This document shows, in pieces, positions 505 to 17,641 of a stretch of 64,000 nt of DNA. Origin of the DNA: Puniceicoccaceae bacterium (GTDB lineage Bacteria; Verrucomicrobiota; Verrucomicrobiia; Opitutales; Coraliomargaritaceae); NCBI GenBank assembly GCA_002729725.1, contig PBYS01000002.1, forward strand, positions 1 through 64,000. The letters run 5' to 3'. The position numbers and the translations under genes were made by a program. Each line of letters opens with the position of its first letter. The stretch's first letter is position 1. Below the pieces are notes generated by a model. That model had not been told where the DNA came from, did no database searches, and saw nothing but the letters and a program-made list of their open reading frames with translations.

Positions 505-573
505 GGAGAAAAAAGGGGTCATTTCGTAAATTCATAAAGGGAGAAAAAAGGGGTCATTTCGTAAATTCATAAA
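505..573 (+). repeat. Two tandem copies of the RAYT-associated short repeat (left side)
   Basis: Two near-identical units of about 34 bp, each with GGAGAAAAAAGGGGTCATTT followed by CGTAAATTCATAAA, lie head to tail at 505-538 and 539-573. A partial third copy of the purine-rich part precedes them. The inner copy overlaps the end of the transposase gene: the antisense of the repeat supplies its last codons and its TGA stop. The copies on the other side of the transposase (1591-1732) are in the opposite orientation. Confidence 0.85.
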
Positions 574-1590: not shown

Positions 1591-1744
1591 TATGATTTTA
1601 CGAAATGACCCCTTCTATGCCTTTTTTATGATTTTACGAAATGACCCCTTCTATGCCTTTTTATGATTTTACGAAATGACCCCTTCTATGCCTCCTTCTT
1701 TTATGATTTTACGAAATGACCCCTTCTATGCCTCCTTCTATGCC
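1591..1744 (-). repeat. Four tandem copies of the RAYT-associated repeat (right side)
   Basis: Four 31-bp units that start TATGATTTTACGAAATGACC and end CCTTCTATGCC occur at 1591, 1627, 1662 and 1702, followed by a partial TCCTTCTATGCC. Spacing is 36, 35 and 40 bp. The core GGGGTCATTTCGTAAA, read on the minus strand, is the same as in the left copies and in the single copy at 24223, but here it is inverted relative to the left array. Confidence 0.9.
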
Positions 1745-1950
1745 TGGGGTTCGGGGGTCGGTGTGGCGGTGCGGGGCGGTCGATTTGGCCGGGGTGCTTT
1801 GGAGTGCGGCAGCCGTTGCGGCGTTGTTCGGAGGAGCGATTAAGGATTGAAGGGGCGGCTCAGTATTGCGCGGTAGCGCCGTTGCCTGAGCGCAGAACGA
1901 AGGATCGAGATTCGATCCCAGAGGACGAAGCGGACGGCGTTGACCAGCAA
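1745..1950. other. GC-rich intergenic stretch without a credible gene
   Basis: About 200 bp of G-rich sequence. A forward open frame crosses it but has no family features and runs antisense into the next gene. The stretch around 1762-1790 resembles 11515-11545 at the far end of the hairpin-rich region (shared GCGG, GATTTG and GTTGCGG blocks), which may be a diverged dispersed repeat. Confidence 0.4.
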
Positions 1951-2937
1951 CTACGGCAAATAAGGGTTCAAGCTATGCCGAAGGCCGATATTCAAGTTTT
2001 CGCCGACCTTGTATTCCAAATTGCGGTCGTTCGTCGTAGGATTGAAGTAAAGAGCATCCACGCCAATGAAGCTTCCGTCTTCATGTGCCCCGAAAAACTT
2101 AAAGTCGCCATAAATTTTCCCATAGTGGGCTGAGACCACATTTCCTTGAGGGTCAAGGATTGTTCGAACCCTGAACAGGTAGTTCACCCCTTCTTCTTCG
2201 TAGTCTTCGGCTATTAAGTATTTTGTGTGGGCGGCTGCAGTAGCGTCCGGGTTCTCTTTTCTGCTCTTACTCCACTCCTTGCGTGAAGCGTATCCTTCCT
2301 CTGGCGCAACGTGCGGGGACATTAGCTTACTGCCTTTCCGATAGTTGCCTCCGATTTCAATCAACCCGTCTCCCTCATTCGGGAAAGTGACAACGAGACG
2401 AGATTCGTTGTCATTTCGGCTATTGTAATAACCGTTGACGGCAAAAATCACGTCAGTGCTTTTACCGGTTCCGTGCGGCGCAACCCAGTCGGCAGCTTCT
2501 AAATCAAAACCAAATTCTTTGTTCGGTTCAGGAATCACAAACTCAAGTCTAGCTCGTGCATACATCGGTATCGGCTCCTTGATTTCTTTCAAGGTCAAGA
2601 CCACTTCAGGGCTTAAAAAGACGCGCTGGTTATTTTCAACGCTGTAAACTTTCCCGTGGTATCGACTCTCATAGTAACCCTCCTTGTTTGCAGTCACAAA
2701 AAATTCTGCAAGAGATTCACCCGAATAAAGGTAAACTCCCTCATCATCAGTGACACCAGCGCCAGTGCTATAATCACCCGTTCGCATCAGCGGGTAGGAC
2801 ACTTTAACGTCAACACCGCTTAGCGGAGTTCCCGATTCATCCACTACTTTGACAGTAGTTTCAGTTGTTTGCTGTGCGCAGCAAATTTGCGTCGCAGCTA
2901 GAGCCACGAAAAGACAGCTAATCAGTTTATTCAGCAT
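1951..2937 (-). CDS. Secreted protein with carboxypeptidase-regulatory-like domain
   Basis: The protein starts with a signal peptide (MLNKLISCLFVALAATQICCAQQ, cleaved around the AQQ). A beta-sandwich domain of the carboxypeptidase regulatory-like type follows (KVVDESGTPLSGVDVKVSYP, then GVTDDEGVYLY), at about residues 25-120. The remaining 200 residues match no family I recognise. I chose the internal ATG at 2937, not the one four codons upstream, because GGAGG lies five bases before it. This start overlaps the last codons of the upstream hydrolase gene, so the two are probably translationally coupled and co-transcribed. Function is unknown; a role as a partner or anchor of the neighbouring secreted hydrolase is a guess. 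Confidence 0.7.
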   Translation of the reverse strand: MLNKLISCLFVALAATQICCAQQTTETTVKVVDESGTPLSGVDVKVSYPLMRTGDYSTGAGVTDDEGVYLYSGESLAEFFVTANKEGYYESRYHGKVYSVENNQRVFLSPEVVLTLKEIKEPIPMYARARLEFVIPEPNKEFGFDLEAADWVAPHGTGKSTDVIFAVNGYYNSRNDNESRLVVTFPNEGDGLIEIGGNYRKGSKLMSPHVAPEEGYASRKEWSKSRKENPDATAAAHTKYLIAEDYEEEGVNYLFRVRTILDPQGNVVSAHYGKIYGDFKFFGAHEDGSFIGVDALYFNPTTNDRNLEYKVGENLNIGLRHSLNPYLP

Positions 2938-4876
2938 CAAGTCCTCCAATCGCTACAAGCTCTTCGTAAAACGGATAAATGTAAGTGTAAGGTATGTTTT
3001 TCATGTCGCTGTGCTTCCAGTCGGAGTCACCGCGACTGCTGGGCCAACCATTCCGTAGCCCAATAGCATTAATATCTGTGTTTTTACTGCCTCCGGGTTG
3101 ATCAAACGCGCTCACGCTATTTCGTCCGGTAGCATAAGACAAAGCAGGTATGGCCTCGGCCAGAAGCTTTGCTCGCGTCAGATAAAGTCCGGCTTGGTTA
3201 CTCGCTGTAGTGTCGCCATCCAAGCCATAGAGGTTGTCTCCGTTGTAGCTTCCATAGTCGCTATCGGATGACTGGAAGGGATAGAAAAACGGATTGTTGC
3301 GCAATTCATCATCAGTCAATGCGGCAGCTTCGGTTGGAGTCAGTCGCACTGGCCCACCAGGCCCGACACTGCTATGCCAAGTATCATCATTAAATCCCCA
3401 TCCGCCTGCACGATTATTTGTCAGCAGGCCGATCAAGGAGCTTCCTTTATTCCACTCCTGACTATTCCAGGTGCGATAGCCTTTCCAGAAGCCATCCCAA
3501 GAAGGTGGCCCGGAACCATCACCATTCTCCAACACTTCTTCGCCCGAGGAGTAAAAGTTGTGAGCGTTCGAGATTGATCCGTAACGGTCTTTCCATGTCA
3601 GGTCTTTGCGATTGTCGGTGAAGAGATTGTGCCAGTTACTGGCATACAAGCGGCTCTCGTAATTCTCAAAATCGTCATTTGTCATGTTTGCCGTCGTCGT
3701 TGCAGTTATCGTCCCCGAGTCATACGCTTCAGTCGCAACCGCTGCATTGATTAAAAAGTAGCGGTTATAGTTTAACCCATGATCCACGATGCCACTGGAT
3801 ATGACCACATTACCCATGCTGTGCCCTGCTATAGTGATGTCTCCGCTGTAACTGCTTAGAGCAGTAGACAAGTAAGAGCCGGTTCGGTGCGCGTTGATTA
3901 TATTCTCATAGTAATTCGGCGACTTGTGAGCATTGATCGCAAAGACCTGACTGCGGAAGCCCCACCATGTAACGCCCGTGAACTTAGCTCTCGAACCTGT
4001 CCAGTAGAGCCGTTTGAAGGTTTCTGCATTCCAGCCGCGCGCTTGCTCTGTATTTACGTTATAGCCATGCACGAAAACAAAGTGCTTATCACTACATTCG
4101 CTATCAGGAAAACCAGACGGCTGACCGGTATTGGTGGCTACACCGCCAGCTTGGCCTATGTTCCCCATCAAGTTTATGTGGCGATACATATCTTCCACAC
4201 TCGATAGCTTCAGCTCCATGTCATAGGTGAACAGTTCCGTGCCATCATAGCTAAAACGAAGCTGCAGAGGTTCGTCGCTGGCCTCGTGCCCTTCAAGCAG
4301 GATGATTCCGCGCCCGTCACGGATGCGCTCAACCATCTTCTGGGTGAAGTAAACTCCATCACCTGCTTGGGTGGTGGTTGCGTCGCCCCATTCTTCCGCT
4401 TTGACGACGTTCTCCAAGTAGAACTTCGCGCTGTTCTCGTTTAGGCCGACATAATCCTCTGGAAAATCGAGCCAAGCTACCTCTGGTCCAAGCAATTCAA
4501 TCTGGACCTTGGTAACATCCATATTGTCCAGCAGGCCGTGAAAGTCGATGAACACAGGGAAGAAGTCGATCAGGTCAGCTACACCGCCAACACCAACCCT
4601 GAGAGCATCATCAGCGAAGCCGTTCGGTATATCCTTACCTTCATGGTCACCGTCGTTATTGATCCAAAAATAGAACGGATCATCACCTGCAGCGCACTGG
4701 TAATCACTCGGATGCACCTTACCGTTACTATCCGTAAAAGATTCTTTTCTGATTACACCGTCCCGGTCATAATCCGGCACTATGTCCACCTTGAGTAGCC
4801 TATCTGCTTTAGACCGCCAAAAAAATGCCGCAGTAATGGGGTCTAGGGGGTTCGGGCTGTGACAGGTGGATTGCAT
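2927..4876 (-). CDS. Large protein with alpha/beta-hydrolase (lipase-like) domain, probably N-terminally truncated
   Basis: A 649-residue protein. In its middle are HFVFVHGYNVN (oxyanion-type HG motif) and, about 85 residues later, GHSMGN, the nucleophile elbow of lipase/esterase alpha/beta hydrolases. The N-terminal half has beta-rich text (VDIVPDYDRDGVI, YFWINNDGD) typical of internal domains of long secreted verrucomicrobial proteins. No signal peptide is present, although the downstream coupled gene has one. The gene starts only 56 bases from the end of a recombinase gene. ATG 4876 has AAAAGG eight bases upstream and is preferred over the TTG one codon earlier. I infer that the original 5' part, with the signal peptide, was lost when the element at 4.9-11.6 kb arrived. 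If so, the protein may be non-secreted or non-functional. An intact cytoplasmic hydrolase is less likely. Confidence 0.6.
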   Translation of the reverse strand: MQSTCHSPNPLDPITAAFFWRSKADRLLKVDIVPDYDRDGVIRKESFTDSNGKVHPSDYQCAAGDDPFYFWINNDGDHEGKDIPNGFADDALRVGVGGVADLIDFFPVFIDFHGLLDNMDVTKVQIELLGPEVAWLDFPEDYVGLNENSAKFYLENVVKAEEWGDATTTQAGDGVYFTQKMVERIRDGRGIILLEGHEASDEPLQLRFSYDGTELFTYDMELKLSSVEDMYRHINLMGNIGQAGGVATNTGQPSGFPDSECSDKHFVFVHGYNVNTEQARGWNAETFKRLYWTGSRAKFTGVTWWGFRSQVFAINAHKSPNYYENIINAHRTGSYLSTALSSYSGDITIAGHSMGNVVISSGIVDHGLNYNRYFLINAAVATEAYDSGTITATTTANMTNDDFENYESRLYASNWHNLFTDNRKDLTWKDRYGSISNAHNFYSSGEEVLENGDGSGPPSWDGFWKGYRTWNSQEWNKGSSLIGLLTNNRAGGWGFNDDTWHSSVGPGGPVRLTPTEAAALTDDELRNNPFFYPFQSSDSDYGSYNGDNLYGLDGDTTASNQAGLYLTRAKLLAEAIPALSYATGRNSVSAFDQPGGSKNTDINAIGLRNGWPSSRGDSDWKHSDMKNIPYTYIYPFYEELVAIGGLDAE

Positions 4877-4931
4877 CAAGTTTTCCTTTTAACGGCTAAC
4901 CTCAATGAGCATGCGGCTGTAAGCCGCTTTG

Positions 4932-5912
4932 TCACTGCTTTTTCCCGCGCTTCTTGTCTTGGCGCCAAGTAGCAGTTTTGCTGTTAAAGGGGATAAAGGC
5001 GCTTTCCTGCCTGCGGTTGCCTGGCGCGGTGCGGCTGTGGCTCTTCTGCAGGTCGTCGATGACGACGCGGGTGTAAATCTGGGTCGTGTCAATCGAGCTA
5101 TGCCCTAAAAGCTCCTGCACATGCCGGACGGATGCGCCGCCGCGCAGCATCTCAGTCGCGCAGCTATGGCGCAGACTGTGGACGGTGTAAATGTCGCCGA
5201 GGTGCGCCGCGTCGCGGTGTTTGACGAAGCGTTTCCTGAGCACTTCGGTGCCCATCAAAAACAAGCGGCCATCGGGCTTGCGCTTCTTCTTGAGCAAAAC
5301 CGGCCGCACTTGCTTGAGGTATTCGCCGAGGAACTGAGCGGCCACCTTGCCGACCGGTGCTTGCCGGTCTTTTCTTCCCTTGCCTAGCACGATGCGCACG
5401 ACGCGGCCTTGCAAGTCGAGGTCATACGGAGTCAGGCGGCAGAGTTCGCCGCCTCTAAGGCCGCTGGAGTAAAGCAGCTCGAAGATGCATCGATCGCGGA
5501 AGCCTTCGGCGGTGGAGAGGTTCGGCTGGTGTAACAGTCGCGCGATTTGCTCCCGGTTCATGAGGTTTTTCGGGAGCGACTTCGCTTTGTGCAAGGGCGG
5601 CAGCCCGAGCGTGATATCGGTCAAGACGCGCTCGGTTTCGTGCAGGTAGCGGAACAGGTCGCGCACCGTCCAAAGGATCTTGGATTGATAGTTCTTCGTC
5701 CATGCGCCGCGTGCGCTCTTGCCGTGGCGAACGCGCTCGGAGAGCGCGAGCATCATGGCTTTGTCCGCTTCGCGGACATCCTCGAGGCCGTAGGCTCGGC
5801 AAAACCTGATCCAGTGTTTTAAGACGGTGCCGTCTGCCTTGACAGTGCTCTCGGCCAGATGTTGGCCGCGCCGCCAGTCTTGATACACCGCCGCTGCTTC
5901 GGTCGGGGTCAT
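4932..5912 (-). CDS. Tyrosine recombinase (site-specific integrase), second of a tandem pair
   Basis: A 326-residue tyrosine recombinase of the XerC/XerD-like phage-integrase class. The N-terminal SAM-like core-binding domain covers about residues 5-95. The catalytic domain shows Arg153 (SSGLRGGEL), the beta-hairpin lysine region GKGRKDR (177-183), HSLRH (His245, Arg248), LLGH (His271) and nucleophile Tyr280 (TTQIYTRV), so the active site looks complete. About 40 basic residues follow the catalytic tyrosine. It lacks the extra insertion of integron integrases. Its ATG overlaps the stop of the upstream recombinase by four bases (ATGA), so the two are coupled and may act as a heteromeric pair, as XerC/XerD or RIT-type recombinases do. 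Being an element integrase rather than the chromosomal Xer protein is inferred from its neighbours. Confidence 0.9.
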   Translation of the reverse strand: MTPTEAAAVYQDWRRGQHLAESTVKADGTVLKHWIRFCRAYGLEDVREADKAMMLALSERVRHGKSARGAWTKNYQSKILWTVRDLFRYLHETERVLTDITLGLPPLHKAKSLPKNLMNREQIARLLHQPNLSTAEGFRDRCIFELLYSSGLRGGELCRLTPYDLDLQGRVVRIVLGKGRKDRQAPVGKVAAQFLGEYLKQVRPVLLKKKRKPDGRLFLMGTEVLRKRFVKHRDAAHLGDIYTVHSLRHSCATEMLRGGASVRHVQELLGHSSIDTTQIYTRVVIDDLQKSHSRTAPGNRRQESAFIPFNSKTATWRQDKKRGKKQ

Positions 5913-6910
5913 CGGTCGAGGCCTCGGTATTTGATCGCGCCGTCCGGCAAGTCGATGGCTTCGCGCGGGTGATGCTTGGCCTGGATGCGCCTGAGCTCCG
6001 TCTTGACGATCCGCGTGTAACGCTCGGTCGTATGCAAATAGTCGTGCCCGAGGATCGCTTGGATGTGGCGCAGTTCCGCGCCGCGTTGCAGCATCGAGGT
6101 CGCGAGCGTGTGACGGAAGCTGTGAACGGTGATCGTCTTTTCTATCTTAGCCGCCTTCGTGTAGCCCTTCAGTTTCTTACAGATTCCGGACACGCCAAAC
6201 ATACCGCCAAAGCGGTTAAGGAAGAGGAGGTTTTGAGGTTCGGAAGCCGGGAGGTTTTGAGGCTTCAAAAGCAAGGGTCGGACGTTTTCGATATAGTCGG
6301 CGAGATAGCGGCAGGCGGTTTCCCCGACCGGGACGAGGCGGTCTTTGTCGCCTTTGCCCTCTCTGACGCTCAAAGTGCGGTTAAAGGAATCAAAGTCTTC
6401 TCCCTTTAACTGCCTCAGTTCGCTGATGCGTAAACCGCAGCTGTAGAGCACTTCCAACATGGTGCGATCTCTAAAGCCGCTGACCGTGTTCACGTCGGGT
6501 TGCTTTAAAAGCCGTCTTGCTTCGGCGGCGGTCAGGATCGCGGTTGGAAGGCTTTTGCGTTCCTTCGGCAAGCGCAGCTTGGCGGCGGGATTGTGGAGCA
6601 ATTCACCGCTCTCGTGTAGGAAGGTGTAGAAGACTTTGAGAGCGCAGAGGATGTTCAGCTGAGTGTTGATTCCTAAAGGTCGATTAAAACGGCTGGTGTA
6701 GTTCAACAGCCATGCTTGATAGCTGTTAAAGGTTTCCGGAGTGGCTTCCTTGAAGCCGATTTCTTCCTCTTCGAGGAACTTGATCCAGTAGACTAAATGG
6801 GGACTGTGTTGGTCTCGATTACTGGAGGATCTTCGGCGAACAGAGAGCCATTCAGTAAAACTCCCTATAAGGTCTTTTCCGAAAAAGTGTTCCGCTTTTC
6901 TCTTACTCAT
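5909..6910 (-). CDS. Tyrosine recombinase (site-specific integrase), first of a tandem pair
   Basis: A second tyrosine recombinase with an intact catalytic set. In the long form starting at 6979 the residues are Arg184 (CGLRISEL), GKGDKDR (208-214), HSFRH (His286, Arg289), LGH (His312) and Tyr321 (TERYTRI). The longest frame begins with a GTG at 6979, but its first 20 codons are encoded by the repeat array described separately. The ATG at 6910 (MSKRKAEHFF) follows a GGA eight bases upstream and is the likelier start, giving 333 residues. The repeats then become the leader of this gene, suggesting autoregulation or a recombination site at its own promoter. It is coupled by ATGA overlap to the second recombinase and follows the primase gene after about 95 bases. 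Confidence 0.88.
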   Translation of the reverse strand: MSKRKAEHFFGKDLIGSFTEWLSVRRRSSSNRDQHSPHLVYWIKFLEEEEIGFKEATPETFNSYQAWLLNYTSRFNRPLGINTQLNILCALKVFYTFLHESGELLHNPAAKLRLPKERKSLPTAILTAAEARRLLKQPDVNTVSGFRDRTMLEVLYSCGLRISELRQLKGEDFDSFNRTLSVREGKGDKDRLVPVGETACRYLADYIENVRPLLLKPQNLPASEPQNLLFLNRFGGMFGVSGICKKLKGYTKAAKIEKTITVHSFRHTLATSMLQRGAELRHIQAILGHDYLHTTERYTRIVKTELRRIQAKHHPREAIDLPDGAIKYRGLDR

Positions 6911-7006
6911 TATTTTCCAATCACTTAGCTTTAAAAAAGCGGGACAAAACCGGGTCAAAAGCGGAACAAAGCGGGACACTTTTCAGCAAAAGCGGAACAC
7001 TTTTTC
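6881..7006. repeat. Iteron-like array with flanking 19-bp perfect inverted repeat
   Basis: Five direct copies of AAAGCGGRACA (one degenerate, AAACCGGGTCA) start at 6936, 6947, 6958, 6968 and 6989, at steps of 11, 11, 10 and 21 bp, which is one helical turn per step. The last copy extends to AAAAGCGGAACACTTTTTC (6988-7006). Its exact reverse complement lies at 6881-6899, inside the first codons of the recombinase. The array sits between a primase-helicase and a recombinase. It could be a replication origin with iterons, recombinase arm-type binding sites or an operator; the sequence alone does not separate these. Confidence 0.8.
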
Positions 7007-9656
7007 AGGCTTTGACCTCCGTTCCACTGTTCATCTGAGCATATTTTTCCTTTAGCTGCTCCGGCGTTGTCAGGCCGTTAAGCAAGTCCACGGCGGGAGG
7101 TTGTCCAGCCAGTTGATACTTGAACGAGCCGCCATTTCTGGAACGCCTGACGCTGACATATTCGAGGTCTTCGAGGCTACGCATACCACGCTTTACGATG
7201 TGGTCAGGTAAGCCGGTGATCTGGCGCACGTCGCGCCGTCTGAAGCTCAACTCGCTCGATTGCACGCCGAGTTTGCGCGCCTCCTTCGTCGCCCATTTGC
7301 GGATCGCGGCGAGTAACTGGCTCGCGCTGCGGGGCAACTCTGCCCAAGCGTGTTCCAAGCAACTCTTGGCCAGATCAAACGCGGCCGCGTAATCTTCGGG
7401 CGTGGCCTCCACCGCGTTACCGTCGCGCCTGCGCTGCTTCTGGTGCAGGAACGTGACGGCTTCGACCAGGCTCAAAAGCCGGTCGATGTCGCGCCGTCCG
7501 CGCGTCCAGTTGACAGGGAAGTCGAGCAGGTGCGCGAACGGGATCCGCACCGTGACCGGCTCCAGCAATCGCTGGGCATTATGATGCCGCTGCACGATCT
7601 TTTCTCTTTTAACCGCTCTCTCCTCCGCGCTGAGCAAGTGCGCTTTCTTCTGCGCATCGAAGATCTTCCGCGTCTGCTTCGGCGATTCATCTAGATACAG
7701 TTCAAACGAACGATTCTCGTTCTCCGGATTCACCTCCGTCGAGGTGGTCGATTCCATATAAGCGATCGGGCCGAGGATCGTCACTTCGGCGGTTTCGATA
7801 TTGCCCGTCTTCGCGTTCTTCATCGGCACGGCCAGCGTCAACTTGCGCCGACTCTGTAGCGTCCGGATTGGGTATTCGCTCTCGGCGCTGCCATCGCGCT
7901 CGTCCACGATCAGAAGCTTATGCTGGAGCGCTTCGCGCCCCATGTAATAAAGGCTCTGCGAGGTCAGGCGGCTAAAGAAGCGCACTTCTTCGGGCGGCGT
8001 CAGCTCAGCCACGCATTCCATCAAAAAACTTTTACCCGCGCCGGATTCGCTGCGCACGATGCCGCTGAGCGGCTTCGTCAGGCGGCGACTGGTGCCGATC
8101 AGGTAGGCCAGTTGTTTGTTGGTCTGCTCGCCGACGTAGCCGATAGCGGCCATGTCGGCCGCGATGCGGCTGAGCAGGTTCGGAGCGGTTAAAAAGGAAA
8201 GGGCTTTCTTCTCTTCCTCCGCGCTCATCGGTGGCACTTCGTCTTTCGCCTCCGGTGCGCTGCGCGTCTCCTGCAGGAGCGTTTCCAGCTTCGGGATAAG
8301 CTTCGATAGATCCTCTTCGATTTTCGGCTGTGGTAGTTCCAGCCGCTGCGCGGCGTGGAAGGCGAAGCCGCTGCGGCTCTTGGCCGAGTAAAGGTCGAAG
8401 CGATCGGTGTGGCTTCGCTCCGCATCCTCGGCCGTGACGATGAGTTTCAAGCTCGTCTCGCTGTTTTCAAACAGACCGCGCAAGCGGTAGCTGAGCTGGC
8501 AGTTGGTGAACCGCAGGTCGCTTTCGGTCTGCTCGATCAAAGCTAAATCCGACCTCTTAGCTGTATTGGTTTTTCCGATACGCGGAGCGGATTGGAGCAA
8601 GCTTTCAAAGGTTAAACGCACCTCGTCTTTGCCCAGACCTTCCGCGTAAAGGTGCAGCAACAGCTCGTTGAGATCCTTGACCCCGTCGAGCGTTGGCAAC
8701 TTCAAGCGGCTAAAAGACAGGTCTGGATATTTTTCTTTTAATTGCTCCACCAGCCGCTTCACGCCTTCCGCACCAGCCTTGTCGTTGTCGAAGGCGAAGA
8801 CCAGCCGCCGCGCCTTACCCGCGTTCAAAAGCGCGTCATGGTCGTCCGTCCAGCCGTTCGTTCCATAGGTCGCGATCACGTTCTTGATACCGACCGAGTA
8901 AAGCGCGAGCGCGTCGAAGATCGCTTCGCAGACGATCACAGAGTCATAGACTTTCAAGGCCTTGCCGTTGAACACGCCGCCGTGTTGGCCTTTCAGATAC
9001 AGCTTGCGCGGGTCGCTGACGCCACGGGCGAAGCATTCGCCCAGGCCTCCGTCCTCGCGCCAGACCGGCACCACCACGCAGCCGTAAAAGCTCGGGTTGC
9101 CCTTGTCATTCAAGAAGCCAATCGATTGCAGAGCGGCCACCGCTTCGCGGTTCTTCGGGAGCAGATCCCGCAAGCTGCCGTCGATGTAGCCGAGCTTAAA
9201 AGTCCGGATCGTTTCCGCGTCATCGAGGCCGCGTATTTTCAAATAGTCAAAGCCTTCGCAACCTGGCTTGGTCAAAGTCTTGTGCGCGTGGTCGAAGATA
9301 GCGGTTAAAAGAGATGGGTCGGGCGCAGCCCGTTCCCCAGCCTCTTCTTTCTTAACCGCCATCGTGGACAGCGGCGCGATATGCGGCACCCGCCGCAAAA
9401 GGATCTTTCGCGCCTCGGCCACATCGACGCCGTCCAGCTTCATCACCAGATCCACCGCGCTGCCTCCGGCATCGCAGCCGAAGCAGTTCCAAAGGCCACG
9501 CTCCGGCGTAATCTTGAGGCTCGGTGTGTCGTCGCCTTCGTGGAACGGGCAACGGCACTCGTGCTGCGCCCCGCGTTGCTTCACTTCGATTCCGTAGCTG
9601 CCGAACAGCTCCACAAGATCGATCGAGCGTTTCAAGTCTTCGATTTTCACGGTCAT
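7005..9656 (-). CDS. CHC2 zinc-finger / Toprim DNA primase fused to a P-loop helicase-like domain
   Basis: An 883-residue replication protein of the type found on phages, plasmids and integrative elements. The N-terminal CHC2 zinc finger is Cys36-x2-His39 (CPFHEGDDTPS) with Cys58-x2-Cys61 (WNCFGC). A Toprim domain follows, with VIVCEAIFDALALYS and the acidic FAFDNDKAG near residues 240-300. The second half has a Walker A, SGAGKS (about 537-543), and a probable Walker B in KLLIVDERDG. Regions after this resemble the helicase-like half of bifunctional primases. The likely job is priming and unwinding for element replication after excision. It overlaps the upstream small ORF by four bases (ATGA) and precedes the iteron array, so a replication module of small ORF, primase and iterons is plausible. 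No frameshift is seen. Confidence 0.88.
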   Translation of the reverse strand: MTVKIEDLKRSIDLVELFGSYGIEVKQRGAQHECRCPFHEGDDTPSLKITPERGLWNCFGCDAGGSAVDLVMKLDGVDVAEARKILLRRVPHIAPLSTMAVKKEEAGERAAPDPSLLTAIFDHAHKTLTKPGCEGFDYLKIRGLDDAETIRTFKLGYIDGSLRDLLPKNREAVAALQSIGFLNDKGNPSFYGCVVVPVWREDGGLGECFARGVSDPRKLYLKGQHGGVFNGKALKVYDSVIVCEAIFDALALYSVGIKNVIATYGTNGWTDDHDALLNAGKARRLVFAFDNDKAGAEGVKRLVEQLKEKYPDLSFSRLKLPTLDGVKDLNELLLHLYAEGLGKDEVRLTFESLLQSAPRIGKTNTAKRSDLALIEQTESDLRFTNCQLSYRLRGLFENSETSLKLIVTAEDAERSHTDRFDLYSAKSRSGFAFHAAQRLELPQPKIEEDLSKLIPKLETLLQETRSAPEAKDEVPPMSAEEEKKALSFLTAPNLLSRIAADMAAIGYVGEQTNKQLAYLIGTSRRLTKPLSGIVRSESGAGKSFLMECVAELTPPEEVRFFSRLTSQSLYYMGREALQHKLLIVDERDGSAESEYPIRTLQSRRKLTLAVPMKNAKTGNIETAEVTILGPIAYMESTTSTEVNPENENRSFELYLDESPKQTRKIFDAQKKAHLLSAEERAVKREKIVQRHHNAQRLLEPVTVRIPFAHLLDFPVNWTRGRRDIDRLLSLVEAVTFLHQKQRRRDGNAVEATPEDYAAAFDLAKSCLEHAWAELPRSASQLLAAIRKWATKEARKLGVQSSELSFRRRDVRQITGLPDHIVKRGMRSLEDLEYVSVRRSRNGGSFKYQLAGQPPAVDLLNGLTTPEQLKEKYAQMNSGTEVKA

Positions 9657-10126
9657 TTCGAACCGCCTTCCTGTGTGGCGTGGAGCACTTCAAGCGGCGG
9701 ATAGCGGCTGTCGATCCAGCCGCGCACGGCCTCGGCCTCCCAGCTGCCGGGGCGTGTCTCGCATTCGGCCATGTCCGAAGCCAGGTCGACGAGGGTTTGC
9801 GGCAGACCCTGCAGGCAGCGCCTGCGAGTCAGCCGCTCGGCCGTGGCGTAGGTCGGCACGGGGAGCGGCAGAGTCAACTTGACTGGCCGAGCCGCGTCTT
9901 CGCGGTCGCTTTCCTCGTCCAGGCGGATCATTTCGCGGATGCGCTTCAAAGTCGCACGGCTCTTTTCAATCGAGTCGTCGGTTTCGCCGTCATTGCGCCA
10001 GATCCATTCGTCGATCTTGTCGGCGAAGACCCATTCCAGTTGCAGCAAGTCCGCGTAAGTCAGGAGATTTTCCGCAACGGCGGATTCGGTTTCAACTTGC
10101 CCTTTCGGGCACTTTTCTTCACTCAT
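9653..10126 (-). CDS. Hypothetical protein coupled to the primase
   Basis: A 157-residue acidic protein without a family I recognise and without signal peptide or membrane segments. It is rich in charged helix-forming residues (for example the stretch around KSRATLKRIREMIRLDEESDRED). Its last codons overlap the primase start (ATGA), which strongly supports real coding and a shared transcript. As the first gene of the minus-strand operon it lies next to the divergent Xre regulator, whose operator probably controls it. A role in replication initiation or element control is only inferred from position. Confidence 0.7.
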   Translation of the reverse strand: MSEEKCPKGQVETESAVAENLLTYADLLQLEWVFADKIDEWIWRNDGETDDSIEKSRATLKRIREMIRLDEESDREDAARPVKLTLPLPVPTYATAERLTRRRCLQGLPQTLVDLASDMAECETRPGSWEAEAVRGWIDSRYPPLEVLHATQEGGSK

Positions 10127-10204: not shown

Positions 10205-10267
10205 CTGTCAAGTCCGAAGATTCGGATTTTGACAGACACAATAATTACTTTCATATGTGGTAATTAT
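10205..10267. promoter_or_regulatory. Xre operator/promoter region with nested inverted repeats
   Basis: Two palindromic blocks lie between the divergent genes. CTGTCAA (10205-10211) pairs with TTGACAG (10229-10235) around an inner CCGAA-GA-TTCGG. ATAATTAC (10241-10248) pairs with GTAATTAT (10260-10267). TTGACA at 10229 and CATATG at 10252, 17 bases apart, form a plausible sigma-70 promoter for the regulator, with the second palindrome over its -10 region. That is the usual layout for self-repression by an Xre-family protein. Confidence 0.55.
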
Positions 10268-10313: not shown

Positions 10314-10688
10314 ATGCCAGCCGGTCGCCCATCACAATCAAAGCGCAGTCTCTTCGGAGAACGCCTTTTTGCTGCCCGACAGCAAAAAGGGATTTCACAG
10401 CACGAAGCCTCTGAGCAAATGGAGATCGCTCAACAAACCTATGCCTCTTGGGAACGTCGTGACGTTGCCATAAAGCCCGAGGATATTGTCAAGCTGGCCG
10501 CGATCCTGGACACGACAGCCGCCTACCTTTTAGGGTGCGAAGACGAGCCCGCTCGACCGGGTGCCCCGACAGGCAAGCTGCGCCGACTCGTGGACGAAGT
10601 CCGCGAGCTTCCCCGCTATCAGCAACAACGGGTAATCGCTACCCTTGAAGACGCGCTTCTAGCCCAACGTGCCAAAAAAGCCTCGTAA
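10314..10688 (+). CDS. Xre-family (HTH_3) transcriptional regulator
   Basis: A 124-residue repressor-like protein. Residues about 12-75 are a Cro/C1-type helix-turn-helix (LFGERLFAARQQKGISQHEASEQ, recognition region QQTYASWERRDVAIKPEDIVKLAAIL, then DTTAAYLLGCEDE). The C-terminal 45 residues are helical and probably serve dimerisation. The open frame starts further upstream at 10257, but ATG 10314 begins the conserved part and leaves the operator palindromes outside the gene. It is transcribed away from the primase operon, like a lysogeny-type repressor of a mobile element, and the long hairpin-rich region follows directly. Confidence 0.85.
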   Translation: MPAGRPSQSKRSLFGERLFAARQQKGISQHEASEQMEIAQQTYASWERRDVAIKPEDIVKLAAILDTTAAYLLGCEDEPARPGAPTGKLRRLVDEVRELPRYQQQRVIATLEDALLAQRAKKAS

Positions 10689-10699
10689 GTCCCTGAGTA

Positions 10700-11610
10700 T
10701 TTTTTCGAGAAGCCCAAAGAGATAAAACCGTAGCGGCTCAAGGTGGATCGCAGCGAGGCACGAGCGAGAAGACCTTGAACCGTGTAGGTAAAATCTCGAC
10801 GGCTTAACGAAAAAGGGAGATCGCCCGTTGCTTCCGATACCACGAAGGAAAGCGCTCGGGGCGAGGCCGAGCAAGACCGGGTGCCGGTCGCGTCTGCGCG
10901 ACGGGCATGGCTTTGATTTCGCTGCGGCGATAGCCGCGTAGATTTCACAGAGTCTCTGTGCAGGGAGCCTTAGCGACTGGAACAGTGGCTATGTGTTGCC
11001 GTGGTTTGGCCAGCCGCGTGTTGGTTGCAGCGGCTTGGTTAAAAGCGCGCGCAAGCGCGACGCGGGGGCAACCCGCGCGCTGGCGGTGGGGGAAAGCCCC
11101 TTGGGGCTGCGTGGCGGGATCGACAAGACGGTATAGGCGCAGTCGGCGAAGCACGACGGAGACGGTCAAACGTAGACGCTCTTTGGCATCGGAGGTGAAC
11201 GCTTCGAACGGGTGACGACCCGGGCGCGGGGTTCTGAAGCTCTGCGGAGTATCGGCTTGCCCGATACGGAGTCTGACTGATTGACCGCGCGGCCTCGAAC
11301 GTAGACGCGCTAGTCCCGCCACCGCCCCGCCGTCGGGAGCCCCCTGCTGACTCGCTGGACGACAGCCCTAGGGCTCTTATGTCTAGTTCTTCCCCGCCTC
11401 TCTGTTTGAGCACTGGAACAGTGCGAGTGAGGCGATTAAGGGAAAACTAGGCATAAGATCCCTAGGGCGGGGAGAACGGCTAAACAATCGCTAGCCAGGG
11501 GGCGACCAGAGGCGGGGCGGGGGCGGGACGGTTGATTTGCCAGTGAAGAAGCGAGAACCGAGTGGACGCCCGTTGCCCGTTGCGGAGTTGATCAGTTAAT
11601 ACGGGTAGCG
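10700..11610 (+). ncRNA. Candidate large structured noncoding RNA (about 0.9 kb, many hairpins)
   Basis: No frame here has a recognisable protein, yet the sequence is packed with stems. Examples are a long imperfect stem pairing 10719-10744 with 10772-10797; GCTCGG/CCGAGC (10854-10872); GTCGCG-TCTG-CGCGAC (10887-10902); GCGGC-GATA-GCCGC; CACAGA-GTC-TCTGTG; CGCGC-GCAA-GCGCG (11046-11059, a GNRA tetraloop); CGCGGG-GGCAA-CCCGCG (11061-11077); CGGGT-GACG-ACCCG; TATCGG-CTTGC-CCGATA; and the 102-nt hairpin at 11366. Two separate hairpins share the apex ACTGGAACAGTG. The GCAA loop is a GNRA loop on the plus strand, and several pairs are G-U only when that strand is transcribed, so I call it plus. 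Size, ornate folding and a mobile-element context recall GOLLD and ROOL RNAs, but I cannot assign it to either. The ends are approximate. Confidence 0.6.
11366..11467 (+). ncRNA. 102-nt nested hairpin within the structured region
   Basis: CCCTAGGG at 11366 pairs with CCCTAGGG at 11460. The arms then continue through about 20 further positions (11374-11393 against 11440-11459) with two mismatches and two G-U pairs. Inside, GCCTC (11396) faces GAGGC (11428), and the apex is GCACTG-GAA-CAGTGC (11410-11424). The G-U pairs would be A-C mismatches in the other strand, which argues for plus-strand RNA. It is not an integron attC site: no GTTRRRY core is seen. Confidence 0.7.
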
Positions 11611-11685
11611 GCTAAAAGAAGATAAAGGCAAACGAATAAGAATTAGCTATTATAATCATAACGGAATGTCTCCTTTTGAGCTCTC

Positions 11686-12174
11686 TCAAGGAACCGCAAC
11701 ATTTTGATGTTTCTCTGGGTTTACAGCCAGAACCATGAGCTTACCCTCAAAACATGCCATATAGTGCCTGAAATTGACCTCATTACCAAATTCGTCTGCA
11801 AGCACAACATTGCTTACTGATATATTTATTGGATCAACTTCCAAGGTCGCTCCAATTTCATCAATAATAGCGTCATCCCACTCTCTTCGCTCAGCTTCTT
11901 CGACCCAAACTTTCAAATCTTTAAGCCGATATGGACCGAGCCGCTCATACAATACAGCTTTTGGCTGTTGAATGTAATATCTCGTAAGATACTTCTCATC
12001 GCCATCCTGTTGAATTCGCTTCAATGACGTGGGATGAAACACTTTCGCAAAATCAGAGTCACCACCAAATATCACGCTTATAAATGAAGAACCGTCGAAC
12101 CTACAAAGGTCCCTGGAATGAGAGCACGATGTAATTAAACTGAGAAATGCTAAAACATATACTAACTTATTCAT
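11686..12174 (-). CDS. Small lipoprotein coupled to the RHS gene
   Basis: The 162-residue product begins MNKLVYVLAFLSLITSCSH, a lipoprotein signal with a lipobox-like ITSC. Its ATG overlaps the end of the RHS gene (stop at 12167), so I use it instead of the upstream in-frame methionines. The body has no family I recognise. Position directly behind an RHS gene is where immunity proteins to RHS tip toxins usually lie, and a periplasm-facing lipoprotein could serve that job, but no toxin domain is recognised in the RHS tip. This role is a hypothesis. Confidence 0.65.
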   Translation of the reverse strand: MNKLVYVLAFLSLITSCSHSRDLCRFDGSSFISVIFGGDSDFAKVFHPTSLKRIQQDGDEKYLTRYYIQQPKAVLYERLGPYRLKDLKVWVEEAERREWDDAIIDEIGATLEVDPINISVSNVVLADEFGNEVNFRHYMACFEGKLMVLAVNPEKHQNVAVP

Positions 12175-15100
12175 AGCTATATTTTGTTTCGATGAGTAAT
12201 CGCGGAGGAAATGAAAGCGTAAATTCATTAACTTCTGTTCCATTAACGTCCAAAGACTTGTCGCACGGAATACATTCATAGTATTCCACTTTAGCGAAGT
12301 ATTCATAGCTTTCTACAATTGGATGAACCTTGATATTGCCTCCCCCACCTGAAAAATCATCAGGGGGATTTACTCCAGGAGGGTTTGGCAACTTTCCTCC
12401 GCCGCCCGACACTCCAAATTCATCTTCCTTAATGCGGATATAGTAAAACTGATCAATCCTTACTACTAGAGATTCATATCCCTTTCGGCAGCTTGAATCG
12501 CCTCGTTTCGCATAAGAAACACCATCTTCTCCCACATAAGCATTTTCGTTGCCATCATATTCACCCGTTGACGGGTCTCCGTAGAAACTCTCAGGGGGAC
12601 CTTCACTCCCTCCCCCGGTTTCAACTCCTTTCCATCTATTCACAAAATCTCCCCCGAAAGGCATACGCCCATCAGTATCTACAAGATTGACCGGGGTGTT
12701 TCGAACGAAGCCATACAGGTTCAAACCACCGATTTCCCCGATCGGATCTCTAGATGGCCATCTCCCCGTCACGGGATCATAATATCTGAAGCCGTAGTAA
12801 TACCAATCGATATCATTGATTAGAGGTTTGGTGGAGAAGCCGTATTCACCAACGAGTGAACCGCTGATAATATTACCGAAGGGGTCATATTCGACGTTCA
12901 TCTCAACCGAGCCCGTGCTACTAAGCTTTTGCATGATGTTACCGTTGGCATCGTAAGTCGGATAGTAAGCGCCTTCTTTGAGAAGTCCACCAACACCGCC
13001 TGCACCTTGCATACTTCCACTTAAATCGAGGCCCCAAGTGTAGGAAGTTTGAAGGGTGAGGTTTGAAGTTTGAAGATCATAAGTGGCGATGCGGTTCCAG
13101 CCGTCGTAGACGTAGACTTCAACATTTGTGCCGTCGTCTTTCTTGACGAGACGGCCTTGATAGTCGTAGGTGAAGTCGATGTTGGTCGTGCCGTCGGTTG
13201 CGCTGGACAGGCGATTTTCGTTGTTCCACTGATATGCCCAGAGACCTTTGGTCTCAAGGTTACCGTCCTCGTCGTGAGGAGATTCAAGTGTCACTGGATC
13301 GACGTATTGATTGAGGGCGTTGCTAGCGTAGGTGGTCGCGGGCTGGAAGCCCACACTACTTTTACGATTGCCGATCTGGTCGTAGGTGTAATCAGGATTC
13401 CACGCAGCTCCCTGATTCGTGTCACTATTTACAGAGCCCTCAACCTCGGATCGAGTGTTGTAGCGGAAGGTATCGGTATTGGTGGTTGCAATCGCACTAC
13501 CACTTTGCTCGCGGTCTGCGCGGCGACCTAGGGCATCATACGTGTAGCCGTATCGTGAGAGCGATACACCAGTTAGATCTGGAACCTTGTTAGCTACAAC
13601 AGTCATGACATTACGATTAAGCTCATAATCGTAGGCGACACTGTGCTGCGGAGCGGTGAGGCTGGCAAGCAGATTACTGTCTGGCTTATAGCTATATGTA
13701 AAAGTGTCGGTGCCGTCGGTGATGGTTTCGAGGCGTCCGGTGGTGTCGTAGCCGTAAGTCGACTGTGCGTAAACTGTGTCAAAGTCCTGAATGTCTAGTG
13801 GTGCGACCGGGGTTATCTTTAATTGCCCCGCAATATAACCGGTTGGACGCCCAAAGGTATCAACACTACGGAGAAGTATTTGATCTTGATAGAAAGTGGC
13901 GTCCAGCTCCTCGACTTCAAGTTGTAGAGTCGCGGGGTCGTAGGCGAAGCTGCGGATACCGGTGGCGTCGGTCACTGTGGCCTGACGACCGAGGCGGTCG
14001 TAGGTGTAGGTGATGTCGGCGGTGTCGATGGCTTCGTAATTGACGTTGAGCAGTTCGCCGGTGTTGGGGTCATAACTGTAAGTCGTGTCGAGGCCTCCGT
14101 CGCGTGCCCAAGTGCGGACCGACAGGCGGTTGGCACTGTCGTAGGTGTAATCGGTGCCGTTGGCGTCTGCGTATTGCTTACGGGTGAGCAAGCCTGTGGA
14201 CGCTTGATAGCTCCATGTGGTCTCGTCGCCGCTATCGTCTTCGTCAGTAATAGGCCAAATGGTGGTCGAAAAGTCGATTTCGGTGTCGCGCCAGGTAGTG
14301 AGCGTTTCGAGTTCGCCGTAAGCGTTGTAGCTATAGGCCTGCGGGTAATCGGTCTCGCCCCAAGTATGGATCTGGCGACCGAGAAGGTCGTAGGCTTGAT
14401 AGCTTTTCTGCTGGAGTGCGTTGGTGACGGATGCCACCTGCCCGGCTCCAGCGCTACCCTGCGGATAATAGGTATAGGCTGTGGCGTTGCCTGCGCCATC
14501 GGTTTGAGTGAAGACCTGATTTGTGCCAGTGTAGTAATCGATTGTAGACGCTTGCGCATGGCGGGGATCTTTGACACTGACGCGACGCTCAAGCGCATCA
14601 TAGCCGTATGCCGTCGCGGCAGCGACGGTGGAGCTATTTTGAGAGACCAGCAGTCCGTTGATGCTGATACGGGTGGCGTCGACATCGGAGCTTGGCGAAT
14701 CGGTGATTTGCGTGACGGTCTTGGTGGCGCGATCCACGTAGGTCGTGTTTGCGGTGACGTTGCCATACACATCAGTGGTGGCGCTTTCACTGACTAGGTC
14801 GCCATTGGCACCTGCTAATGGAAAGTTGGAGAGGCGCTGTGCACTGCGGCTGACCTGGACTGCGTTTTCACTTTCGGTGCCAGTTCCTGGGTAGACCTTA
14901 GTGGTGCTGATTGCAAACCAGTCCCCATCGACTTGCTCCATGAAGCGGTTGCTATCGGTAATGCGGTCACTTGAATCAAGTGTGAGTCCCACAATGCCAT
15001 CGAGGTCGAGGCCAGAGCGAATGAGGTTTGCGAGGGCATCGTATTCGTAGCGAGTGGCAGCGCGGCCGGTCTCGGTCTGCATTTCCAATAGGCCTTGAGC

Positions 15101-17641
15101 GTCATATTCCATGGTGCGGACAATCATGCCGCCGTCCGATGCGGGGCTCTCTTCACGTATGAGGCGTCCGGCAACGTCGACAGTCGTTTCGCGATAACGA
15201 GGAGAAGTTGCGGTCGCGACATCAACACGCGTGGTGATGGAGCCATCAGCATTTTCGGTGTAGGTGTAATATTCCGGAACAACTCCAGTGCCGGTGACGG
15301 ACTTGATACGCCCATCGAGATATTTTTCGGTGATACGTGTGGAACCATCTGGTGACTCCATCGTAGTGACACGCCGATCATCGACGTAACTATAGGTGGT
15401 CGTATAGCCATTCACATCAGTCGCTTCCGAACGACGTCCTGCGCTATCTGTCTTTTGACTCGATTGCAGAGTCAATCCACCAGCGGTGCGCTCGATGCTA
15501 GCCTGACCATCACAGCCACATCCAATAGCGCCCAAGTCGCGGACATAGTTAGTCACTAAATTCTCAGCTCCATTGACTCCCGCCTTCATCTCAAATTTCA
15601 AACGGTTGAGCAAATCGTAGTCATACAGATAGTATTCACCGGTTTCAGTGATGCGATCTCCCACTAGCGGCCCAAACCAGCCTTGTTGCAAAGTAAGACG
15701 TCCATCTTTGAAGCGTTTCGTCAATTGAAAGCCTTTGGTCGAAATTTCGTCCGAAAACTCCTGCGTTGTTGTGCTGAGAAGCTGCCAATCGGAGCCGACA
15801 CGGACATAGCTAGCCTCTTGGACTATATTTCCGCGCATGTCCTTGGTCGTGACCTGACGGGTGGACTTAAAGGGGACGAAACCATTCGACCCCAATTGAT
15901 CAACTGTTTGAACGAACGCATCCGGTGCAGTGGTTTGCGCATAACTGTAAACCATGACGACACCGTCTGGCGTCGTAACACGCTGGAGCCTTCCGGCAGA
16001 AACGGCATCTGCATTATCAGGATAATAGACGCGTGTGGTGCGCAGATTAGATGGATCTCCATACTCAGGGCCCTCGCCATCTTCTTCCAAAGTCGTGGTG
16101 CGTTCTTCGATCTCGGTGTATTCATAGATCGTTTCTCCTGCTTCATTGATAGTAGAATCGATAAAGTAGGCATTGTAAGTGCGACCAGTTTCCGTGCCTC
16201 GCACTTGGGTAATCGTGGTGCGAGCGCGCGCATCGAAGTCAGTTGCAATGTCGCGAGGGTCTACAGGATCGTAACTATAAATAGTCACCTTAGTCTCAGT
16301 CGCAGGGCTGCCAACGGGACTGTCCATCCATGGCTCGGCGCGCTGAATCATTCGATCCTCAGAGTCATATGTAAAATGAGTCCAACGACCATCCGGATAA
16401 ACGGTTTGCTTACGCCGTCCAAAGCCATTCTCATTTTCATTCTCGTAGTAGCTATAAGTGGTCGTGAGAGCAAAGTTCATCGAATCTTTAACTGATTCAA
16501 TCGCAAGATCGTCTCCCCAAGGGAAGGTATGCAGGCGCTCAAAATTACTGGAAACCAGCTCACCACTCTCGTCGAGAAGTTCACGTGTCTCAATTACATC
16601 GCCAGTGTCCTCATCCTCCTGCACGATGATCTGCTCAGTTAACATGCCCTGAGTATCAGTCGTGCTCTCCAAGCCCTTCATGAATCGCCAGTCCTTAGCG
16701 GCAACAATGTATTCCCACTCACTGATCCGCTCGTAAGCACCATGGGTCTCGACGATTTGGATACGGTCATACTGGTCTGGATTCCCCGTGGGATTTCGAA
16801 TCAGAATCGTCCGATACGGTTGTGCTTCCGCGCCAGGCTCGCCCTCTGGATCTGCCACAGGAACATAGAGTCCATCCGCGCCAGGCACTCCCGCACTGGC
16901 GTTGGTATAAAAACTAAGTTGATATGAGAAATCATCAATGACAAGTAGATCCACGAGGCCTGCTGCAGAGCGGATTTGACGATACGCACCATCTTGAAGC
17001 ACGATATCAAACTGTTCACCTGCCTCGATGACACGACCAGCCGGTGTCTTTACGCGTAATGCAAATTCCCCAACTTCTACCGCGTAGTCGATTTCGCTAC
17101 CGTCCCCCTTTATCAAGCGGTAGTAAACCGGAGTTTCCACTTCAACAATCTGTTCATAATCGGCAGCTAATAGTAAGACACGATCATCACTTCCAGTAAA
17201 ATCACCGACAGGACGAGCAACACTCGAACCACTACTCACTTGATACTTGACTGCATTATTATTCTCATCACGCAGCTCAAACTCGTGCGAGATACCCGCA
17301 GGCAACTGTTCTTCAGCCTTTATACTACTGACAAAAGTCGTGATTCCCGAAGAGTAGTTGAGCGAGCTCGGGGTGAACAGGCTCGGAGATGGCTCGTCGC
17401 GTTTTACAGATAAGCGCTGTGCACCCAAGCCTGCCTCCAATGGAAGAATTGGAAAATCGAAGTTGAAGCTCACGCTACCAAGTGTTCCATCCGAACCCCC
17501 ACACCCGTCATCTGTATCATCCCCCGGAGGTAGATTGATCGCCAATAAATCGGAGAGCCCTGCAATGATGAAAAGGCACAGCATCAGCAGTTTAGAGCAA
17601 TATGCCCCCTGAGCTCTGTGTAATTGTCTTATCGTTTTCAT
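12167..17641 (-). CDS. RHS/YD-repeat protein with unassigned C-terminal tip
   Basis: An 1824-residue secreted protein. A signal segment (residues about 16-36) is followed by a 350-residue N-terminal domain beginning LPPGDDTDDGCGGSDGTLG. Many YD/RHS repeats follow (TYSYYENENENG, FTYDSEDRM, YEYDALANLIRSG, YTYDSANRLSV and others). The RHS-associated core ends with RYYDPVTGRWPSRDPIGEIG and NLYGFVRNTPVNLVDTDGR. RHS repeats form a shell that encloses a C-terminal tip, often a toxin or adhesive effector. The last 150 residues here are Gly/Pro-rich with four cysteines, and I recognise no nuclease, deaminase or protease motif. The gene follows a helical-repeat protein by 18 bases and overlaps a small lipoprotein gene. 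No VgrG or PAAR gene is nearby, so a type VI cargo role is unsupported. Confidence 0.9.
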   Translation of the reverse strand: MKTIRQLHRAQGAYCSKLLMLCLFIIAGLSDLLAINLPPGDDTDDGCGGSDGTLGSVSFNFDFPILPLEAGLGAQRLSVKRDEPSPSLFTPSSLNYSSGITTFVSSIKAEEQLPAGISHEFELRDENNNAVKYQVSSGSSVARPVGDFTGSDDRVLLLAADYEQIVEVETPVYYRLIKGDGSEIDYAVEVGEFALRVKTPAGRVIEAGEQFDIVLQDGAYRQIRSAAGLVDLLVIDDFSYQLSFYTNASAGVPGADGLYVPVADPEGEPGAEAQPYRTILIRNPTGNPDQYDRIQIVETHGAYERISEWEYIVAAKDWRFMKGLESTTDTQGMLTEQIIVQEDEDTGDVIETRELLDESGELVSSNFERLHTFPWGDDLAIESVKDSMNFALTTTYSYYENENENGFGRRKQTVYPDGRWTHFTYDSEDRMIQRAEPWMDSPVGSPATETKVTIYSYDPVDPRDIATDFDARARTTITQVRGTETGRTYNAYFIDSTINEAGETIYEYTEIEERTTTLEEDGEGPEYGDPSNLRTTRVYYPDNADAVSAGRLQRVTTPDGVVMVYSYAQTTAPDAFVQTVDQLGSNGFVPFKSTRQVTTKDMRGNIVQEASYVRVGSDWQLLSTTTQEFSDEISTKGFQLTKRFKDGRLTLQQGWFGPLVGDRITETGEYYLYDYDLLNRLKFEMKAGVNGAENLVTNYVRDLGAIGCGCDGQASIERTAGGLTLQSSQKTDSAGRRSEATDVNGYTTTYSYVDDRRVTTMESPDGSTRITEKYLDGRIKSVTGTGVVPEYYTYTENADGSITTRVDVATATSPRYRETTVDVAGRLIREESPASDGGMIVRTMEYDAQGLLEMQTETGRAATRYEYDALANLIRSGLDLDGIVGLTLDSSDRITDSNRFMEQVDGDWFAISTTKVYPGTGTESENAVQVSRSAQRLSNFPLAGANGDLVSESATTDVYGNVTANTTYVDRATKTVTQITDSPSSDVDATRISINGLLVSQNSSTVAAATAYGYDALERRVSVKDPRHAQASTIDYYTGTNQVFTQTDGAGNATAYTYYPQGSAGAGQVASVTNALQQKSYQAYDLLGRQIHTWGETDYPQAYSYNAYGELETLTTWRDTEIDFSTTIWPITDEDDSGDETTWSYQASTGLLTRKQYADANGTDYTYDSANRLSVRTWARDGGLDTTYSYDPNTGELLNVNYEAIDTADITYTYDRLGRQATVTDATGIRSFAYDPATLQLEVEELDATFYQDQILLRSVDTFGRPTGYIAGQLKITPVAPLDIQDFDTVYAQSTYGYDTTGRLETITDGTDTFTYSYKPDSNLLASLTAPQHSVAYDYELNRNVMTVVANKVPDLTGVSLSRYGYTYDALGRRADREQSGSAIATTNTDTFRYNTRSEVEGSVNSDTNQGAAWNPDYTYDQIGNRKSSVGFQPATTYASNALNQYVDPVTLESPHDEDGNLETKGLWAYQWNNENRLSSATDGTTNIDFTYDYQGRLVKKDDGTNVEVYVYDGWNRIATYDLQTSNLTLQTSYTWGLDLSGSMQGAGGVGGLLKEGAYYPTYDANGNIMQKLSSTGSVEMNVEYDPFGNIISGSLVGEYGFSTKPLINDIDWYYYGFRYYDPVTGRWPSRDPIGEIGGLNLYGFVRNTPVNLVDTDGRMPFGGDFVNRWKGVETGGGSEGPPESFYGDPSTGEYDGNENAYVGEDGVSYAKRGDSSCRKGYESLVVRIDQFYYIRIKEDEFGVSGGGGKLPNPPGVNPPDDFSGGGGNIKVHPIVESYEYFAKVEYYECIPCDKSLDVNGTEVNEFTLSFPPRLLIETKYSYE

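Follow-up and report, generated by a model that had tools for sequence, protein, structure and literature searches.

A candidate giant structured RNA of a satellite-like element and its phage relatives in the Opitutales

Few giant, ornate RNAs are known. GOLLD and ROOL assemble into RNA-only cages of unknown function, and the expression of GOLLD, the cage of which is homo-oligomeric, rises during lysis. GOLLD is an ornate RNA of more than 800 nt found in phages and prophages, with one part conserved across hosts and a variable 5′ part, and both GOLLD and ROOL often lie near tRNA islands (PMC12286853). ROOL, also large and ornate, occurs in phages and mobile DNA, and its solved example measures 659 nt (PMC12286853, PMC5643018). 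OLE, a large structured RNA with a kink turn, occurs in Bacillota together with Oap proteins (PMC9723947). The vibriophage ICP1 produces an abundant transcript of ~800 nt without an ORF, and an ncRNA is found in its PLE satellites (PMC7567579).

The DNA analysed in the present study, a stretch of 64,000 nucleotides (hereafter the window), belongs to a genome of 4.7 Mb in 125 contigs (99.98% complete). The region of interest (10690-11620 on the plus strand, ~930 bases) lies directly downstream of an xre-type repressor gene (Table 1). The comparisons described below indicate that it almost certainly specifies a structured, functional RNA, and this RNA is probably a giant non-coding plus-strand molecule of an undescribed class, the carriers of which are temperate phages and a satellite-like element in the Opitutales (Verrucomicrobiota). 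No description of it was found in the open papers covered. In cmscan searches of the window and three phage loci, no Rfam family matched at gathering or permissive thresholds (E up to 1-5), and the models of GOLLD, ROOL, OLE, HEARO and group I/II introns matched neither the window nor the phage loci. By every test applied here, the RNA is not homologous to GOLLD or ROOL, and the first-pass annotation, made from the letters of the window alone, was apt in remarking that size and setting recall these two classes while assigning the RNA to neither.

Table 1. Positions of the putative RNA gene, its modules and the surrounding genes in the window
Feature	Position	Strand	Remarks
Detached 3′ tail of another RNA copy	1740..1948	+	83% identical to C82 tails; left of cargo genes
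Tyrosine recombinase (Xer-like), second of pair	4932..5912	-	
Tyrosine recombinase (Xer-like)	5909..6979	-	
DnaG-type primase, CHC2 zinc finger and Toprim, C-terminal extension	7005..9656	-	
157-aa protein, no family match	9653..10126	-	Divergent from xre
Xre-type (Cro/CI, RstR-like) repressor gene, directly upstream of RNA	10314..10688	+	HTH_3, E 4e-11
Putative giant structured RNA gene	10686..11620	+	Conserved extent; approximate ends
5′ domain, long interrupted helix UUUUUUCG..CGAAAAAGG, GCGGCUCAAGGU../ACCUUGAACCG	10701..10818	+	Kept in 5 genomic copies
Module A, GNRA hairpin and GGGGGCAACCC hairpin, then GGCGGUGGGGGAAAGCCCC..GCGUGGCGGG	11040..11126	+	Top match of model R2
Module B, GCAUCGGAG..CCCGGGCGCGGGG	11166..11240	+	By eye
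Module C, long nested hairpin	11311..11532	+	Covariation; found in phage RNAs

The first-pass annotation had proposed an undescribed giant structured RNA at 10700-11610, read from the plus strand next to an Xre-controlled element, in about 900 bases without a credible protein. The proposal is supported by the present sequence analysis and its location stands, though the feature appears somewhat longer, the conserved extent running from ~10686, at the xre stop codon, to ~11620, near the point at which the C77 and C70 copies cease to be similar. The protein-coding capacity of the region is nil, as had been suspected. Its longest open frames are at the level of shuffled sequence, and the indels between RNA copies are mostly frame-shifting, so that the frames are lost in homologues in which the stems covary; a protein-coding reading was therefore rejected. 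A consensus scan for a promoter and a terminator of the RNA gave nothing convincing.

The minimum free energy of the 911-nt stretch was -449 kcal/mol, compared with -379±9 kcal/mol for dinucleotide shuffles (z -7.8). Because the minus strand was equally extreme relative to its own shuffles (z -8.2), folding energy cannot settle the strand; the choice rests on covariation and on the counts of G-U and A-C cells, both of which favour the plus strand, in agreement with the earlier call. In a model-based alignment of 12 genomic copies of the core hairpin (11338-11501), which leans towards structure because it was fitted to the structure, paired cells amounted to 91% and 26 of the 42 pairs had double changes, compared with 14.6±1.8 in shuffles (0/500). 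The covariation score was 0.466, against 0.180 for shuffles and 0.05-0.09 for slid controls, and a plain MAFFT alignment of the hairpin gave 16 compensated pairs out of 40. The G-U/A-C cells of the core hairpin numbered 40/13 in the plus fold and 16/19 in the minus fold. Among 12 phage RNA sequences diverging down to ~60% identity, double changes were present at 75/273 well-supported pairs; shuffles gave 37±3.6 such pairs and slid controls 19-25. The plus strand of the phage RNAs also folded better than the minus strand, with G-U/A-C cells of 717/109 versus 363/193; part of this bias is built in because folds were chosen with G-U allowed, and the same procedure applied to the minus strand is the fair comparison. 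Compensatory evolution is clear in two independent sequence sets, the element copies and the phage RNAs.

The helices named in the first-pass annotation were recovered at its coordinates. In module C, the core of which has the conserved CUUAUGUC/GGCAUAAG and a UUUGA..CGAGU internal loop, the nested 102-nt hairpin pairs 11366-11394 with 11439-11467 through 24 Watson-Crick and 2 G-U pairs in 29 positions, which is beyond chance. In module A, the GNRA hairpin CGCGC-GCAA-GCGCG is present at 11046-11059, and the GCAA loop of the window is replaced by GGAA or GAAA in sister copies. The three G-U pairs listed (10733/10783, 11382/11451 and 11391/11442) all exist. The 26-bp imperfect stem (10719-10744 with 10772-10797) fared less well, since its 18 Watson-Crick pairs and 1 G-U pair in 26 positions are by themselves within chance (best stem in shuffled sequence, 18-21), though the helix is conserved in five homologues. 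The 5′ domain that contains this stem has double changes at only 2 pairs, occurs in the elements only and was unrecognised in the phage RNAs; in G032 and G030, its loops have insertions and its helices are intact. The order of module B appeared by eye to be equal in the phage RNAs. The RNAs of G032 and G030 have extra loop inserts (L036 4030-4301, L041), one of which resembles a dispersed repeat likewise seen in the primase gene region of C37 (L042 ~7340-7400).

The same genome contains about ten copies or fragments of the RNA that are 70-95% identical, several of them at contig ends, as expected of a multi-copy sequence. The window RNA shares 88-89% identity with the copy on contig C37 (89% over 665 nt) and 76% with that on C77. 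The primases of the window and C37, in contrast to these RNAs, share 38% of residues, and the two xre genes are barely alignable as DNA. Within the same family, 7 other genomes of the 44 searched had a match in at least one BLAST or covariance-model search. In a named collection, matches to the RNA pattern were obtained in a Verrucomicrobia MAG (JAAAPI010000056.1; cf. G032:C36) and an Opitutales MAG (JABBCA010000085.1 and JABBCA010000003.1; cf. G009:C23 and C30). A more distant copy (L103 7975-8131, E 4e-9) in the near-complete genome G020 has an Xre-type gene nearby, along with genes for two proteins (404 and 339 aa) without known family.

In the element lineage, 3′ halves without a 5′ half are common, and the detached tail in the window, which ends GCGCGGUAGCG..GGCGUUGACC, is listed in Table 1. 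Solo 3′ halves lie between cargo genes at L014 2249-2506 and 7279-7486, L045 8278-8575, L039 4139-4444 and L066 13181-13486, and several start near one point, corresponding to about 11330-11345 of the window. Action of the RNA purely in trans is not enough to account for these solo halves, which counts against the explanation that we prefer. REP-associated tyrosine transposases or their remnants have inserted into or next to RNA tails (window 554-1546, L034 ~3820-4740 and L042 ~2400-2700), flanked by GACCCCTTTTT-type repeats.

The gene content around the RNA suggests that the carrier is a satellite-like integrative element. The xre gene, which has an open frame from a GTG at 10257 and matches phage repressor families, immediately precedes the RNA in four copies of the element (window, C37, G032-C36 and G009-C30), bearing out the Xre-controlled context first proposed, and a different short gene takes its place in C77. 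The DNA at the 5′ end of the gene for the 157-aa protein is conserved in the C37 element. Both recombinases scored below the NCBIfam cut-offs for integron integrase, and neither head genes nor a reverse transcriptase or endonuclease gene were found in the window element. The 8,795-bp contig C37 (G000:C37, L042 1-8795) carries a recombinase, a 1009-aa primase, xre and two tandem RNA pieces between identical 91-bp ends, which are consistent with a possible circular form of a sister element or, alternatively, with a tandem repeat. In sister elements, Doc-like and ParE-like toxin genes, recognised by eye, closely follow the tyrosine recombinase (L065 4709-5089, L043 7531-7833).

The 3′ end of the RNA abuts convergent cargo genes, several of which resemble the C-terminal tips of RHS or other surface proteins. 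Such tips, with a small downstream gene, recur beside the RNA 3′ end (window 1951-4879 and 12167-17641; L042 3389-4156; L043 7862-8683; L066 11624-12664). In the C37 and C77 cargo, the RHS core (GRWPSRDPI) is fused to an invariant start (MVALN..AP..KNRVGDFF). RHS-type tips may be carried from one locus to another by the element, with displaced tips remaining behind.

Relatives of the RNA were found in phages. Model R1, a covariance model of the core hairpin built from the element RNAs, was run over 384 genomes of the class and outside its own family matched only two genomes (G138 and G194), both from a single genus of a different family in the order, with E ~1e-4, which is marginal when taken alone and, like the E-values of R2 given below, comes from a shortened calibration. 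These matches keep CUUAUGUC/GGCAUAAG with covarying flanks and sit in a non-coding gap of ~1.5 kb in prophages with Mu-type portal, protease, terminase and head genes. R1 matched further relatives as well. A DNA search recovered the phage RNA region in 17 of the 200 genomes sampled from family f13, a portal-protein search recovered the same phages among IMG/VR contigs, most with the RNA region likewise placed, and a search with the RNA pattern added further contigs in which the arrangement was unchanged. Terminase, portal, Mu-like protease and head genes surround the RNA, and in the phages examined the RNA gene is divergent from the gene for the terminase small subunit, near its start. The phage RNA is ~1.45 kb long, compared with ~930 bases in the window, and its region is fixed beside the terminase genes, unrepeated between cassettes and without xre directly upstream. 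The presence of relatives of ~1.45 kb in phages with Mu-type heads makes the reading as a phage RNA much stronger.

Model R2 was built from the phage RNAs only, on a module other than that of R1. In 260 kb of DNA from the element family, its five best matches (window 11040-11126, C37 twice, C77 and G032-C36) all fell at the expected place and strand, individually weak at E 0.007-0.1, and the sixth, at E 0.4, lay elsewhere. Common ancestry of the element and phage RNAs is very likely because two modules share order and strand, and in our judgement the element RNA very probably belongs to the same class as the phage RNA. The two are not alignable end to end, having different 5′ domains and variable tails; a tail motif, GCGCGNUAGCG..GGCGUUG, is apparently common to both by eye. 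Homology is claimed for neither the first ~350 nt, since the nhmmer match of the element 5′ region to the phage RNAs was not significant, nor a wider spread, since the matches of R2 among 388 genomes of the phylum were confined to three genomes from a single genus of family f13. BLASTN gave no match for the element RNA among phage and plasmid records or for the phage RNA among phages, and exact element-RNA patterns were absent from the viral contigs; the genomes searched are partly metagenome-assembled and several searches had BLAST-level sensitivity.

Several other explanations deserve consideration. An integron-like DNA site was initially favoured owing to the solo 3′ halves among cargo genes, which are recombination-site-like, and the two tyrosine recombinases encoded nearby and the long nested inverted repeats also agree with an attC-like folded recombination site or an element end. 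However, attC is a short, cassette-bounding hairpin of single-stranded DNA, whereas the present region extends over ~930-1,450 nt, contains dozens of covarying helices and shows variation among GNRA loops as well as G-U pairs kept on one strand, and in the phages it stays by the terminase genes, unrepeated and free of cassettes. The integron-like site was later rejected because of the covariation, the strand bias of G-U pairs and the phage homologues, and we regard a DNA site of any such kind as highly improbable. A decayed or diverged ribozyme, whether a group I/II intron or another retroelement RNA, is barely credible, since size and complexity alone speak for it, while no Rfam intron or ribozyme matched even at E up to 5, the element has no reverse transcriptase or endonuclease gene and no interrupted host gene was seen.

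Two further readings accept an RNA and assign it another role. The start of the RNA, a few nucleotides at most from the xre stop codon, and the convergent genes downstream would suit a regulatory RNA of the xre unit, such as a long 3′ UTR, an antisense RNA or a repressor sponge, rather than a structural machine. This is unlikely, given that a base-pairing regulator needs no ornate conserved structure of ~1 kb and that the phage copies, divergent from terminase, have no xre directly upstream. Alternatively, the RNA might be a packaging or helper-interaction RNA that acts with the packaging motor or in pac recognition, the copy in the satellite causing it to be packaged by such a phage. The phage RNA gene directly beside, and divergent from, the terminase small subunit and the element equipped in satellite fashion with recombinases, primase and repressor but no head genes are in keeping with this role, for which the unrelated packaging RNA of phage phi29 offers a precedent. 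Yet the known packaging RNA is far smaller, an RNA-bearing helper phage was not found in the family of the element and neighbourhood alone is no proof of function, making this reading quite unlikely.

Returning to the giant non-coding RNA of phages and a satellite-like element, its gene sits at a control point of the carrier, just after xre in the element and, in the phages, on the near upstream side of the terminase small-subunit gene, from which it diverges. We propose that the RNA would be kept low while the repressor holds and would accumulate upon induction of the element or phage, and expression on induction seems reasonably likely. During the replicative or late phase, the accumulated RNA may then serve as a scaffold or RNA machine, most likely working in the manner of the RNA-only cages of GOLLD and ROOL, though unrelated to them in sequence. 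Such assembly, suggested by size, structure and setting, is a tentative possibility. That the homologous giant RNA might serve phages and the satellite-like element in a common late-stage function, for example packaging or an RNA-only compartment, is a more speculative idea and rather doubtful.

To our knowledge, the phage form of ~1.45 kb would be the largest known class of structured non-ribosomal RNA in bacteria or their viruses. If the proposed reading is true, an unrelated and larger class in phages and in an element without head genes would imply that giant RNAs arose on more than one occasion in phages. The new class would provide a comparison set for asking what giant RNAs do, and supplies sequences, modules and a genetic setting, beside xre or terminase, for experiments.

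Compared with described systems, the RNA resembles OLE in being large and structured and in its UUUGA..CGAGU internal loop, which is kink-turn-like by eye, but it has no match to OLE, an RNA of Bacillota that occurs with Oap proteins. The element resembles phage satellites (PLE, PICI and P4-like) in having an integrase, a primase and a repressor without structural genes, and the matching ends of C37 are consistent with a circular form; it differs in that its cargo resembles tips of RHS or surface proteins, not capsid-hijacking genes, and no helper phage was identified. In ICP1 and PLE, large non-coding RNAs occur in the phage and, separately, in satellites, whereas here a single RNA class would be common to phages and an element without head genes, no homology being claimed between them. 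Like ROOL, the present RNA is large, ornate and associated with phages and mobile DNA, but at 930-1,450 nt it matches ROOL in neither sequence nor structure and has no tRNAs near. No tRNA genes were found in nine phage loci, three element loci or near the window element, and the RNA thus differs from GOLLD in its neighbours as well as in giving no covariance-model match. With GOLLD it nevertheless shares giant size (>800 nt; ~930 nt and ~1.45 kb here) and dense conserved structure, a place in phages, here relatives with Mu-type heads, and the combination of a part conserved across hosts with a variable 5′ part, while being longer in phages (~1.45 kb) and occurring also in an element without head genes.
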